A stretch of DNA of 64,000 bases from assembly GCF_000151315.2 (NCBI RefSeq), contig NW_011887293.1, forward strand, positions 1 to 64,000, given 5' to 3'. A model generated the notes under the pieces. That model made no database searches. It saw only the letters and a list, made by a program, of their open reading frames with translations, and was not told where the DNA came from. Each line of letters begins with the position of its first letter. The first letter of the stretch is position 1. Positions 16,188 through 24,458 of the stretch are shown one piece after another. Made by a program: the position numbers and the translations under genes. This stretch comes from Capsaspora owczarzaki ATCC 30864 (taxonomy: Eukaryota > Opisthokonta > Filasterea).

Positions 16188-19100
16188 ATGCTCGACTTGA
16201 GGCAATCTGCCGGTCGCGTCATGATGGTTTCGCTGGTGGTGATGATGATGATCATGCTGCTCGTGCTGCAGCCTGCGCATGGCCAACCGAGCACCGCCAC
16301 CACCAGCACCAGCAGTCACTCTGCCGTGCACGCATCTCCGTCCCACGCGCTGCTCAGCCCTGACGCCGACGCAGTAGGAGCGGTCGTGCAGATCAACGTC
16401 TCGGACGCGAATCAGCTCCAGTCTGCAATCCAGCTCTATGCAAACCCAGCAACGCGCCTCGTCCTCGTCCTCACCCCACCCGCAGCCACCACAGCCACCA
16501 CAGCCACCACAGCCACGCCCCCATCACTGGCACTGGCTGCGGCCGCTGGCACGATCGTCCTGCCCACGACCATAGCGATTCCACCCGGTTCGGCGGTCTG
16601 GATTCGCGGGAGCGTGCCACTCGGACCCGACGGCGCGGCTCCTGCCAGCAACAAGCCCACATTGGAAGATGCGCGAGACAGGCTCGGAGCCAGTGCTCGC
16701 AGCGCGTTTCAACAGCTCATCGCGCTGGTCTGCCAGGCGGGCGTCGGGTTTTCCGTTGAGCCATCTGCGCGCCTGTCAATACAAGGTAGCTCACTCACTG
16801 ACAGGGAATCACAACAATTCGTCGTTTACATTTAAATGTCAATGATGGGGGAAGGCTGCGGTTTCAACATGATGGCATGGCATAGCATATTCACTCACTC
16901 GTTGTCGCTCGTTGTTTGACTTACACAGATGTGCAACTTGTCGGATGCGCAACTACTGCTGTGCAACTCAACAGGAGCTCCTCTGCGTTCTTCTCCAACG
17001 TTTCGTTTGCTGGTGAGTTTATTCCGGGTGCACGAACAAACTGTTCCTGGGTGATTGATTGTTTGTTGGTCTGTTCTTGGTTGTGTTTTTTTTGTTTTTT
17101 TTTTTTTGTTTGCTGCTGCTCGCTTGGTGATTCTCATTCCAGACAATGGACAAGCATCTCTCGGCCAAGCCCCATCGAGCAGCGCGCCACTTGTATCGTC
17201 GTGCGTGCAGGGCTCTGACAACACCACGAGCAGCTTTTCCAACTGCTACTTTTTGGAAAACGGCAGCGGGTCGTTCGGCAGCGTTGGTTTGCTTGGTCCT
17301 TCATCAAGCACCTTTAGTGATTGCGTATTTGCAGGTACGATCCCGATGGCGCAAGCTTTGCTGTCGACTCCGTTCCCCCTTTTTGTTGAATTCTGTCTCC
17401 TACGCTTTTGGCAGACAATCTCGCGATCGCTGCACAACTTTGCCTTCAATCCGATGACACACTGTCTGCGAGCAATCCGATTCGTCTGGTCTTGGACCGA
17501 GTCATTGTGGCCAACAATTCAGCCGGCGATGAATTTGGCACATCCGGTCGCGCAGCCGGGTTCTTGCTCGCCAGAGGAGCCGCTGTCGTTGCCATGGCCT
17601 CGTGCTTCTTTCTCCACAACAGTGGCTTTTCCGCTGGAGTGATTGACTTTGATCCTCAGCGAAACAGCGACAGTGCTCTTATCGCGACTAGGTGCACATT
17701 TTCCGGTACGAGACGATTTTCAGGGATGTTGTATTGATTGTTGGCTCACCTCTCTTGTCACGTCATGATTCACTTTCTCCGCGCCATCGCCATCGTCATC
17801 GCCTCCTCCTCCTCCTCCTCCTCCTCCTCCTCCTCCTCCTCCTCCTCCTCCTCCTCTTCCAAAGAAAATGACTGCCTCTCTCCCTCGGGGGACAACTACG
17901 CCTCTGGCGTTCTGAATGCGAGAAACTCGGGGACCGCCATCTTTCAGAACTGTACCTTTGATAACAATTGGACTTCTGGGAATGGTGCTGTTGCGATGGT
18001 GGCACAAAACTTTCAATTAGTCATCGAGCATTGTATTTGCGACAACAACACTGCATCCGGATACGGTGGTTGCTTTGCCATCACGGACGCTGCATCGCTG
18101 GAAATGACCTCCAGCCTGCTCAGTGGTACGCGACACGATGCGCCTCGTCACGCTGCTTTTCTTTGCTTGTTTCTCCACTTCAGTGTCGTCTCACATTGCT
18201 CACCCCGCTCGTGTTAGACAATCGTGCTGTTTTCGGCGGTGCTGTTGCTTCCCTCGGTGAGCAAGCGACTGTCGCCGTCCTGAACTCGCTTTTTCTCAAC
18301 AATTCTGCCATTTCGGGCGGCGCCATCATTTTGGAAAACGGTGCGGCAAACGTGTCGCAGTGTACCTTTCTGGCTGACTCTGCCTTGTCTGGCGGAGTGG
18401 CTGCTCTTAGCGGATTTTCTGCGCTACTTTTCAATGGATGTGTTGTTTCCGAGTGCAAAGCTTCCGGTGTTGGGGGTGTTGTTCATCTGACCCAGACATC
18501 ATTCATTGACATTTCCGACAGCTCGTTTACCAGTACGTGCTTCATGTGTTGTCCCGAGTCGCCTTGCTTCGTGTTGTCCCGGGTCGCCTTGCTTCTTGCA
18601 TGTTGCTGTTGGCCGAACAACTGCATATCGTGCCGTGACTTGCCAATCTCACTCTCAGTTGGTTGGTTTTACATCTCTCTACAGACAATTTTGCTGCATC
18701 CGGTGGCGTCGTGTCCTCCACCGACGCGTCGTCGGTCGTGGTTTCGAATTGCAACATGACCCTCAACTATGCGGTTGTTTCGGGAGGAGTTGCTGTCGTT
18801 GACACGTTTGGCCAGCTCCGATTTCAAGAATCAAGGCTGACAGCCAACTATGCTTTGACCGGAGCGGGTGGCGTGGTGTATGCCCGCAGCGCCGCGTCCG
18901 TTGTGTTTTTCGACTGTGAGATTACAGGTAACGTTCCCGAAAGGTTGAACCTTCCTGTTCCCTTTCTTTCAATGCGTGCTGCTTTGACTGTCGACACGCT
19001 TTCTCACTGGTGCGCTCCAACTCTCATTTGTTTTTCCACTTGCGCTCTCACATCCAACACAACCCTCTGTAGAAAACTTTGCCCCGCTTGCCGGCGTCGT

Positions 19101-22100: not shown

Positions 22101-24458
22101 CCTTGACTTGACTTGACTTGACTTGACTGGGGGGGGCCTGATTTTGTTCAATGCTTGTGGAAACACCCGTTTTGCTCATTAGGCTCCTGGAAGACGAGCG
22201 GTGCAGGACGCGAAGCTGTAATCTGCTACACGTTCGAAGATCGCGCATTCATGAAAAAGCTTGGCGCCGGACTGGCTCACTATGGCATTGACGCGTGGTT
22301 TGATGAAATGCGACTCGAGGTACGTGCTGTTTTGCGGTCGAGGAAAGAATCGACACGACCACCCCTGCAAAACTGTTGCTTTGTTCTTGATTTGCTCTGA
22401 CGCATTTTGCTTGCTGGCTTGCTGTTGCCACTTGTTCGGGACAGGCGAGTGCATTTTGGCGAAAGGAAGTGGCACAAACCATCCAAGCATGCCGCGTGTT
22501 TATATTTATTGTGTCCCCACACTCAGTCACCTCCAACTACTGCCTGGAGGAAATCCAGTTCGCCTACGATCACGGGAAGGTCATCTTCCCAGTCATTAAA
22601 GACCGCAACTTTGATGACGAGATTGATCCAGGACTGGACATGCTTTTGAAGCGATTCCAGTGGATTTTCTTTGATGGTGTGGAGCAATCTGCCAAAGTTG
22701 GTGGCGATGACGAGCTTGCACCAACACCCGCTGCCGTCGAAAGTGCAGGTGATCGGACTTTGGCCACACCGACGTTTGACGAACAAGCGGCTCGACTGGC
22801 CAAGGCAATTGTCAAGCAGCTACAAGAGGTACGATGCTAGGTCGTTTGTTGATTTTTGTCTTTTTCTTCTTTTTTTGCGTTGTTGTTGTTGTTGTTGTTG
22901 TTGTTGTTGTTGTTGTTGTTGTTGTTGTTGTTGTTGTTGTTGTTGTTGTTGTTGTTGTTGTTGTTGTTGTTGTTGTTGTTGTTTCTGTCTCGAGTTTTTG
23001 ATTTTCTCTGATTGGTGCTCACCGGCTTTTGTGTTGATTTTCTCTGCTTGGCGCTCATTCTTGTGCGTGAATGTTCCCTCGTATCTTTGCTGAAATTTGC
23101 CTTGCCCATTTTTTTTTTCATTTTGCTGGGTTTTCTTGTACCAGAGCGGATCTGCAATCTTGGACGCATCTGACCAGCAAGATCGCGATCTGGTCATGGT
23201 CGACATGACGGCTGGTGAGAAGCAAATGGCCGAGTACTTGGAAAGCACTGGTCAGCTGCGAACTTCGGCCACCGGCTCCACCACCGCCACCACCGCCACT
23301 ACCGCCACCACCCACAGACCCCTCCATAGCCTTTTGAGCGCGATTCGCAGCCGGACCCGCGGGGCTGGCCACTCGCACGGCCATTCGATTGCGGCTGGCA
23401 TCATGGCCGGCGGTAATTTGGGCAACTCGCTCGCCGCCAAGCTTAAACCCAAGGAGGTGTTCGTCTCTTGGGCGCATGCAGATGCAGAGTTTGTTCGCGA
23501 GCGCCTCTGGCCCGACCTGGAAGCGCGACAGCTGGACTGCTGGATTGACTTTTTGCAGCTGGAAGCTGGCGAGTTTTGGCGCAAAGCCATCGGAGCAGCC
23601 ATCAAGCACTGCCGTGTTTGCCTGTTTGTACTGACGCCAACCTCTGTTCGGTCGCAGTACTGTCAAGAAGAGCTCCTGTATGCCTCCAAGTGCGGAAAAC
23701 GCATCGTCGTGGTCATGGTCAAGCCCTGCAAAAAAGAGCTCGCTGACACGCTCGACGTCAAAGCGGTCATTGATGCGAGTGCCATTGTTGATTTTTCCGA
23801 TTCAGACCTCTACCACATCAACGTGAACATGCTGTCGTCGCTGATCAGTGCGCAGCTCAACCTGAGCCAAGCGGCGCAAGCGAAACGGGAAGCCGGTACG
23901 GCCCCTGGCACGGCACCCGTTCGAGACAAGCGCGCGAGCTCGGTGGCTGTGACGACGATGCGCGCTCTCACCGCGAGAATGTCGCGCGGAGTAAGTCTGC
24001 AGCGCTCGACCGATTTGTCGTCGGACTCGTCCTCTGCAGAGGCCTTGTCCAGACCGCCTTCCTTGGGCCACTTGAACGGTGGGCTGAGCTCGAGCATCGA
24101 CCCCATTGCTGAAGTTGACAGTGAGTACGATCTCGTCAACCCAGACACAATTTCCATGATGAGCTTTGAGGAAATTGGCGATTTGGACGACTTTGGTGTC
24201 GCGCTGGCCGAGGCTCGAAATGCAAGTGCTCCCGCAAAGCCTTCGCAGTCACGTTGGCGGTGGCCGCTTCACTTGTTTGGCAAGCCGAACACGACGCGAA
24301 GCAACATTTCTGCAACACGGTCGGCCTCCTTGCCCTCCGCTCGACCGACCGGCAACGTAGCAGCAGATCCCGGCACATTACCTGTTGCCTTTGCTCATTC
24401 CGTTCCAGCGGGTGACCCAGCGTGGCTTGAGATGACCAGCATTGAAACGTCCATTTAG
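16188..24458 (+). CDS. Receptor: beta-helix ectodomain, class-C 7TM core, tandem TIR domains
   Basis: Eighteen exons: 16188-16785, 16929-17012, 17143-17334, 17415-17705, 17865-18125, 18218-18532, 18685-18927, 19073-19830, 20053-20166, 20252-20474, 20590-20723, 20878-21011, 21334-21457, 21536-21664, 21793-22051, 22183-22319, 22445-22828, 23145-24458. All join in frame at GT-AG sites, giving 1897 codons. Residues 1-35 contain a signal peptide. Residues to about 1025 are beta-helix rungs (repeated N..F.N.A..GGA patterns). About 1030-1285 give seven hydrophobic helices with class-C features: a Cys at the start of TM3, an extracellular Cys after helix 4, IWTAVYP ending helix 4, and GYILGPKM ending helix 7. 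TIR1 lies at about 1295-1400 and TIR2 at about 1560-1695, both with FWRK and the (Y)C-x-E-E position of the NADase glutamate. A Ser/Pro-rich tail follows. It is predicted to sit in the plasma membrane with the TIR domains in the cytosol. The ligand is unknown. Confidence 0.85.
17803..17855 (+). repeat. (CCT)n repeat in receptor intron 4
   Basis: Pyrimidine triplet tract directly before the exon 5 acceptor (17861-17864). It doubles as the polypyrimidine tract. Confidence 0.95.
21079..21320 (+). repeat. (GTTT)n repeat in receptor intron 12
   Basis: About 60 copies of a four-base unit with a few changes, in the intron between the helix 3 exons. It produces spurious Cys/Leu/Phe/Val reading frames. 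Confidence 0.97.
22879..22982 (+). repeat. (GTT)n repeat in receptor intron 17
   Basis: Trinucleotide tract in the intron between the TIR1 and TIR2 exons. It is the same unit, read in the transcribed sense, as the repeat at 4971-5306. Confidence 0.97.

Follow-up and report, generated by a model that had tools for sequence, protein, structure and literature searches.

A Capsaspora gene predicted to encode a beta-helix ectodomain, a class C seven-helix core and two TIR domains in one chain

The first 64,000 nucleotides of contig NW_011887293.1 of Capsaspora owczarzaki ATCC 30864 (the window; positions 1-64000 of contig C2 in the 27.46-Mb, 29-contig assembly used here for all genome searches) contain at 16188-24458 a gene that raises two questions. 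Does it encode a single chain in which the core of a G-protein-coupled receptor (GPCR) is joined directly to TIR domains, and through which of its parts would such a protein signal? An earlier reading made from the letters alone (the sequence-only reading) had assembled 18 exons at GT-AG sites into one frame with the order signal peptide, beta-helix, class C seven-helix core and two TIR domains, and had placed it in a unicellular eukaryote with holozoan genomes as the place to look for relatives; the organism is indeed the holozoan Capsaspora. The analysis reported here supports this layout: Pfam families, profile searches of the PDB, a deposited model and a paralogue all predict that one gene encodes the beta-helix ectodomain, the class C core and the two TIR domains in that order.

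Splicing of the region removed 17 introns, all GT-AG, and yielded 1897 codons followed by a stop at 24458 without internal stops. Read in its two alternative frames, the spliced sequence has 54 and 65 stops, which rules out a frame left open by chance, and the G+C content is 0.56 in coding segments and 0.44 in introns. When retained, 12 of the 17 introns introduce at least one in-frame stop, and the remaining five (introns 2, 3, 6, 7 and 12) are not multiples of 3 in length. Residues 1020-1710 were then compared with 5.8 billion proteins, the 8000 candidates sharing most words being scored (the scope of all protein searches below), and two proteins were obtained at E <=1e-3, both from Capsaspora (P0002 and P0003). 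The first is the GenBank entry 'hypothetical protein, variant [Capsaspora owczarzaki ATCC 30864]', whose 1546 residues are letter-identical to residues 352-1897, so that the deposited model agrees on introns 4-17. We take 'variant' to designate an alternative transcript model of that annotation; a main GenBank model of this gene without that word was not found among the scored candidates. The predicted start and introns 1-3 rest on the present splicing and on introns that the paralogue has at matching places (columns 268, 299 and 369 of the alignment in both). Introns 12 (21012-21333) and 17 (22829-23144) consist mostly of GTTT and GTT simple repeats, and assembly of short-read transcripts across the seven-helix/TIR region could suffer as a result.

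In hmmscan, four Pfam families exceeded their curated cut-offs in the product (Beta_helix, 7tm_3, TIR_2 and TIR) and two more fell below theirs; together with hydropathy, these matches place the domains, from a signal peptide-like N-terminus onwards, in the order that had been claimed. The 7tm_3 match spans residues 1031-1280 and profile positions 4-251 of 251, with 80.6 bits for a cut-off of 33.5, and the ten hydropathy rows above threshold in 1029-1281 merge into seven segments. A PDB search with the single sequence of this region was weak, giving three matches at E <=1 (two GPR179 chains at 3.4e-4 and mGlu5 at 0.2). With a profile made from the two paralogues, all 55 distinct PDB sequences at E <=0.1 were class C receptors (mGlu, GABA-B or chimeras of them, the best at 6.3e-11; GPR179 was not among them), and another kind of helical membrane protein was rejected on this basis. 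The seven-helix region also aligned in hhalign with nine class C cores of the same genome that lack TIR domains (probability 98.9, E 3.8e-17), and the profile of these nine matched GPR158, GPR179, GABA-B and mGlu chains among the best 60 of its 86 rows. Cysteines C1100, at the top of transmembrane helix 3 (TM3), and C1185, in extracellular loop 2, and the Pro-Lys pair at the end of TM7 are kept in both paralogues; the TM3 cysteine and the Pro-Lys pair are also present in 21 of 21 relatives without TIR domains. By its profile and its residues, the seven-helix region is thus assigned to class C.

N-terminal to this core, Beta_helix PF13229 was matched in 3 stretches (81.2 bits) in place of the Venus-flytrap (ANF) family that many animal class C members carry, for which there was no match at E <=1 in the protein; the leucine-rich repeat (LRR), ARM and SAM families likewise gave none at that threshold in hmmscan. 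Variation in the ectodomain among non-metazoan class C members is described in part of PMC12716839. The motif FxxN occurs 14 times in residues 33-1000 (mean of 3.2 and maximum of 9 in 1000 shuffles) and the longer FxxN..GG 6 times (mean of 0.2, maximum of 2). These F-x-x-N...G-G repeats are well over shuffles in both paralogues and resemble those of chlamydial PMP proteins, the Chlam_PMP family itself being matched below its cut-off of 20.6 (14.9 and 18.5 bits); from this likeness, the ectodomain probably binds a surface polymer. The hydropathy scan flagged the N-terminus and four weaker stretches of the ectodomain.

C-terminal to the core, TIR_2 (138 bits) and TIR (56.6 bits) were each matched in 2 stretches, the best being 1307-1373 and 1565-1671. 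The second of these two domains is modelled as a TIR: an AlphaFold model of TIR2 alone (window 23406-23852) had a mean predicted local distance difference test score (pLDDT) of 72.3, and Foldseek found 83 PDB matches at E <=0.001, of which the 50 listed were all TIR-bearing chains. The first twelve include TLR15, RPP1, Hydra TRR-2, C. elegans TIR-1, SARM1 and AbTir. A glutamate at the catalytic position is present in 4 of the 4 TIR domains of the two paralogues and also in the third TIR gene of the genome.

The paralogue P0003 (CAOG_008660, 2080 aa, contig C4), which one source names after its TIR domain, is 37% identical over 97% of residues 1020-1710. It carries 7tm_3 (104.9 bits) and two TIR_2 stretches. 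Beta_helix is absent from the families of the annotated protein at E <=0.1; in the genome search the family exceeded its cut-off at the same locus (C4:781762-782307, 38.9 bits, read through one stop), and the ectodomains of the two paralogues align along their length. CAOG_008660 is annotated to begin some 60 residues before a good signal-peptide-like start (MAASTKPLWALLILLVLLSACAG), so that this model may start too early. In MAFFT alignments, identity between the paralogues was 35.6% in the ectodomain (residues 200-960, 725 aligned), 29.8% in the seven-helix region (252 aligned), 56.5% in TIR1 (115 aligned), 20.7% in the stretch between the TIR domains (82 aligned), 57.3% in TIR2 (150 aligned) and 30.6% in the tail (183 aligned).

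Sixteen introns of the paralogue were mapped, up to its residue 1851 and with a precision of about one residue. Thirteen of them coincide, to within one column of the alignment, with an intron of the window gene, including those at the junction between the seven-helix region and TIR1 (columns 1406/1407) and in the interior of TIR1 (column 1452); the other three are offset by 7, 7 and 34 columns, and one intron of the window gene has no partner. The identical domain order and the mostly shared introns point to a single gene whose fusion predates the duplication. When TIR domains were compared across genes, TIR1-TIR1 and TIR2-TIR2 identities were 56% and 59% whilst crossed pairs reached 22-32%, and the TIR of the third gene was 29-35% identical to all four. 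As each TIR pairs with its positional counterpart, the tandem predates the duplication, and the full order, tandem TIRs included, is read from these alignments as fixed before the gene duplicated.

The coordinates of the gene and of its predicted parts are given in Table 1.

Table 1. Predicted features of the receptor gene (window coordinates)
Feature	Position	Strand	Basis
Whole coding gene, 18 exons, 1897 aa	16188..24458	+	splicing; equal to GenBank model from residue 352 on
Exons 1-6	16188-16785, 16929-17012, 17143-17334, 17415-17705, 17865-18125, 18218-18532	+	
Exons 7-12	18685-18927, 19073-19830, 20053-20166, 20252-20474, 20590-20723, 20878-21011	+	
Exons 13-18	21334-21457, 21536-21664, 21793-22051, 22183-22319, 22445-22828, 23145-24458	+	
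Signal-peptide-like N-terminus, residues 1-32	16188..16283	+	hydropathy peak 9-27; cleavage position conjectural
Beta-helix ectodomain, residues 33 to ~1026	16284..20474	+	exons 1-10; Pfam Beta_helix PF13229
Class C seven-helix core, residues ~1027-1281	20590..22035	+	exons 11-15; Pfam 7tm_3, PDB profile search, hydropathy
TIR domain 1, residues ~1295-1409	22183..22675	+	exons 16-17, intron 22320-22444; Pfam TIR_2 and TIR; boundaries by alignment
TIR1 glutamate at catalytic position, E1368	22550-22552	+	alignments
TIR domain 2, residues ~1551-1700	23415..23864	+	exon 18; TIR_2 1565-1671; AlphaFold model
TIR2 glutamate at catalytic position, E1636	23670-23672	+	
Cytosolic tail (side inferred), residues ~1701-1897	23865..24455	+	translation

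How might such a chain work? The C-terminus of a class C seven-helix domain is cytosolic, class C receptors are dimers, and TIR domains act when brought together. By analogy with these families, the N-terminus and the beta-helix would lie outside the cell and both TIR domains in the cytosol. The beta-helix would bind a surface polymer, for instance a glycan that belongs to prey, bacteria, a host tissue or Capsaspora's own surface; the sequence-only reading had proposed that the protein could sense patterns, food or microbes. The seven-helix core, which like other class C receptors probably forms dimers, would relay the resulting rearrangement so that the paired TIR domains, four per dimer, meet. 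The effector step would be taken by the TIR domains themselves, most probably through cleavage of nicotinamide adenine dinucleotide (NAD+) into ADP-ribose-type messengers and otherwise by nucleating TIR assemblies, and heterotrimeric G proteins would probably not, or no longer, be the main output. The glutamate kept in all four TIR domains and the position of these domains as the most conserved part of the protein favour the TIRs as output. We consider it somewhat more probable than the reverse that the gene encodes a single-chain cell-surface receptor signalling through its own TIR domains and less, or not at all, through G proteins. The most specific form of this proposal, in which the class C core has abandoned G proteins and one membrane protein converts glycan binding by the beta-helix into NAD+-derived messengers made by its own tandem TIR enzymes, is put forward tentatively.

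A number of observations weigh against a receptor of this kind. An AlphaFold model of residues 1009-1705, built from an alignment of only 2 sequences (the paralogues), had a mean pLDDT of 44.4; its seven-helix part consists of one short and then seven long helices, all with pLDDT <50, and is too poor to show a bundle. Foldseek with this weak model listed no GPCR among 50 matches and gave 1 match at E <=0.001 (SARM1). The deposited model P0002 has no signal peptide because it begins at residue 352. On the side of the TIR domains, all five Capsaspora TIRs carry a tyrosine where enzymes such as PdTIR and RPP1 have a tryptophan, four residues before the glutamate, and TLR1-type TIRs carry the same glutamate in the alignment. 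According to part of PMC9153377, no NADase activity was found in mammalian TLR2 or in the TIR adaptors examined; the shared glutamate is therefore no proof of activity. On the G-protein side, the genome contains G-alpha genes (26 exon-level places), and TM3 of the paralogue has an arginine one residue before position 3.53 (KLRT), which could be a partial stand-in for the arginine discussed below.

The TIR domains could alternatively be scaffolds and not enzymes, activation exposing surfaces that recruit other TIR proteins, as Toll-like receptors (TLRs) do with MyD88. The TLR2 result just cited speaks for this possibility, as do the best sequence match of TIR2, a TLR15 chain (E 1.3e-4, followed by the bacterial PdTIR at 5.2e-4), and the first two ranks held by TLR15 among the fold matches. 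TIR1, in contrast, best matches bacterial TIRs (7uxr at E 8.7e-4; AbTIR chains, weakly, at 0.06-0.09), the genome yielded at least one TIR gene besides these two but no more in the searches made, and part of PMC8677719 reports that Capsaspora lacks IKK and homologues of TLR, IL-1R and TNFR. Excerpts of PMC9621439 also describe Capsaspora as having no obvious TLR, yet some components of the TLR pathway. Scaffolding TIRs appear less probable than not. Searches for a Death domain (MyD88) and for a TRPM-type ADP-ribose sensor gave 0 matches, but as the controls were equally silent these zeros do not demonstrate absence.

Still less probable is an ordinary G-protein-coupled class C receptor whose TIR tail merely modulates trafficking or desensitisation. 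The full-length 7tm_3 match and the G-alpha genes agree with it, and both fused receptors retain Lys3.50 and an acidic residue at 6.35 (Asp and Glu), the partners of the ionic lock. Against it stands position 3.53, three residues past Lys3.50 in TM3. According to part of PMC8222003, class C GPCRs conserve residues 3.50, 3.53 and 6.35, and GABA-B signalling is lost in the R577A mutant; R577 is residue 3.53, with a role in G-protein engagement (part of PMC9360005). An arginine there is a mark of G-protein-coupled members and does not enter into the Pfam cut-off. The genome contains 34 exon-level 7tm_3 places. The 21 best by E-value were aligned together with both fused receptors; the other 13 comprise pieces broken by introns or stops and one weak match. 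Arg3.53 is present in 20 of these 21 TIR-less relatives (L040 has Gln), whereas the window gene has Phe and the paralogue Thr. The relatives include near-copies (L035-L038, four; L039, L042 and L043, three), so that the independent cases of Arg3.53 are fewer than the count, and two sequences, L040 and L044, contain stops that were read through. In a tree of 21 rows, made of the two fused receptors and 19 relatives (copies L036 and L037 being dropped), the fused receptors form a clade with support of 100/100, with a long-branch warning that includes CoA. Between the paralogues, conservation of the TIR domains is nearly double that of the seven-helix region, which also argues against a modulatory tail and agrees with output through the TIRs.

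Finally, two adjacent genes misjoined into one (a beta-helix/seven-helix receptor and a cytosolic tandem TIR gene) would fit with TIR-less frames of the former kind in this genome, but such an artefact is highly improbable and was rejected, since the paralogue, which lies on a different contig, repeats the order and has introns in common at the seven-helix/TIR junction and in TIR1, retention of intron 15 would bring 4 in-frame stops, and the deposited model is spliced identically.

The sequence-only reading knew of no described protein with this layout. This fits the literature, where no description of a 7tm_3-TIR protein or of CAOG_08660 was found among the papers listed and main texts searched, and has to be qualified for databases, where the sequence is public in GenBank as a hypothetical protein. 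'TIR' and 'Toll' have 0 occurrences in the main text of a catalogue of GPCRs in close relatives of animals (PMC12716839), as have 'Capsaspora' and 'GPCR' in the main text of a TIR atlas preprint (PMC13142454). Like the window gene, class C GPCRs of anaerobic gut fungi have a beta-helix (pectin-lyase-fold) before the seven-helix domain and no ANF domain (part of PMC5168858), but 'TIR' has 0 occurrences in the main text of that source. Within Capsaspora, locus L029 (C3:484079-486610, a 1482-aa frame) has the same type of ectodomain and seven-helix class, with 25% identity over the match; unlike the fused receptors it keeps Arg3.53, and its frame ends without a TIR, no TIR being matched at the locus. 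Single open frames with the TIR-less pair were found at C3 ~484-486 kb (L029, 1482 aa), C19 ~15-17 kb (1088 aa) and C19 ~22-24 kb (917 aa). The pair, present in Capsaspora and in gut fungi, is thus a known kind of protein; in an origin by steps, what is new is the tail of tandem TIRs.

Other systems share single elements of the layout. SARM1 and the bacterial and plant TIR NADases have in common with the window protein the TIR fold and the glutamate at the catalytic position. These enzymes are intracellular, have other regulatory domains and are not known to carry a seven-helix domain; the ARM-SAM-TIR order of SARM1 is absent from the window protein, where neither ARM nor SAM was matched at E <=1. 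TLRs of animals and choanoflagellates (part of PMC6040629) likewise combine a repeat ectodomain with an intracellular TIR (the cytosolic side being inferred in our protein), but through LRRs, one transmembrane domain and one TIR instead of a beta-helix, seven helices and two TIRs. GPCR-PIPK, GPCR-TKL/K and GPCR-TK proteins (part of PMC12716839) also place a catalytic domain C-terminal to seven helices in one chain; theirs are lipid or protein kinases on other seven-helix families, whereas the window gene has TIRs. Among GPCR-effector fusions, the predicted novelty would lie in pairing a class C core with TIR domains.

Outside the receptors, searches with PF13676 and PF01582 gave at least three TIR-bearing loci in the genome, the third being a 3618-aa open frame on C4 (C4:982001-1002000; TIR at C4:992192-992527). 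Its C-terminal TIR, confirmed by Pfam, follows ARM-like repeats and a SAM-like stretch, both seen by eye only, and no family was matched in the SAM-like piece; this frame is perhaps a SARM1-type protein in Capsaspora. Exon 18 alone retrieved one protein, P0001 (461 aa, WD-repeat-type domains and a TIR, E 7.6e-10), and the search with the alignment of the seven-helix and TIR regions retrieved only P0004 (E 0.13) and P0005 (E 1.0), TIR proteins of other make-up. Four 7tm_3 places about 4 kb apart at G000:C1:3121974-3135111 have the same motif stretches and are probably a recent tandem expansion.

Just downstream of the receptor gene, the opposite strand carries a tRNA-Leu (window 24800-24880). 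Three further open frames on the minus strand look like ordinary neighbours: 35310-38462, matching the INTS6 beta-barrel; 47042-48856, with a cyclin match; and 54667-56688, matching DENN/dDENN (and PPR weakly, below its cut-off).

With the window gene and its paralogue, Capsaspora encodes two predicted membrane receptors with a TIR output, built on a GPCR core and not on the frame of LRRs and a single helix. They are candidates for the input to TIR chemistry, and perhaps to NF-kappaB, in a lineage adjoining animals, and they would provide a natural test case for whether a TIR can be switched by the seven-helix domain to which it is attached, with no G protein involved.

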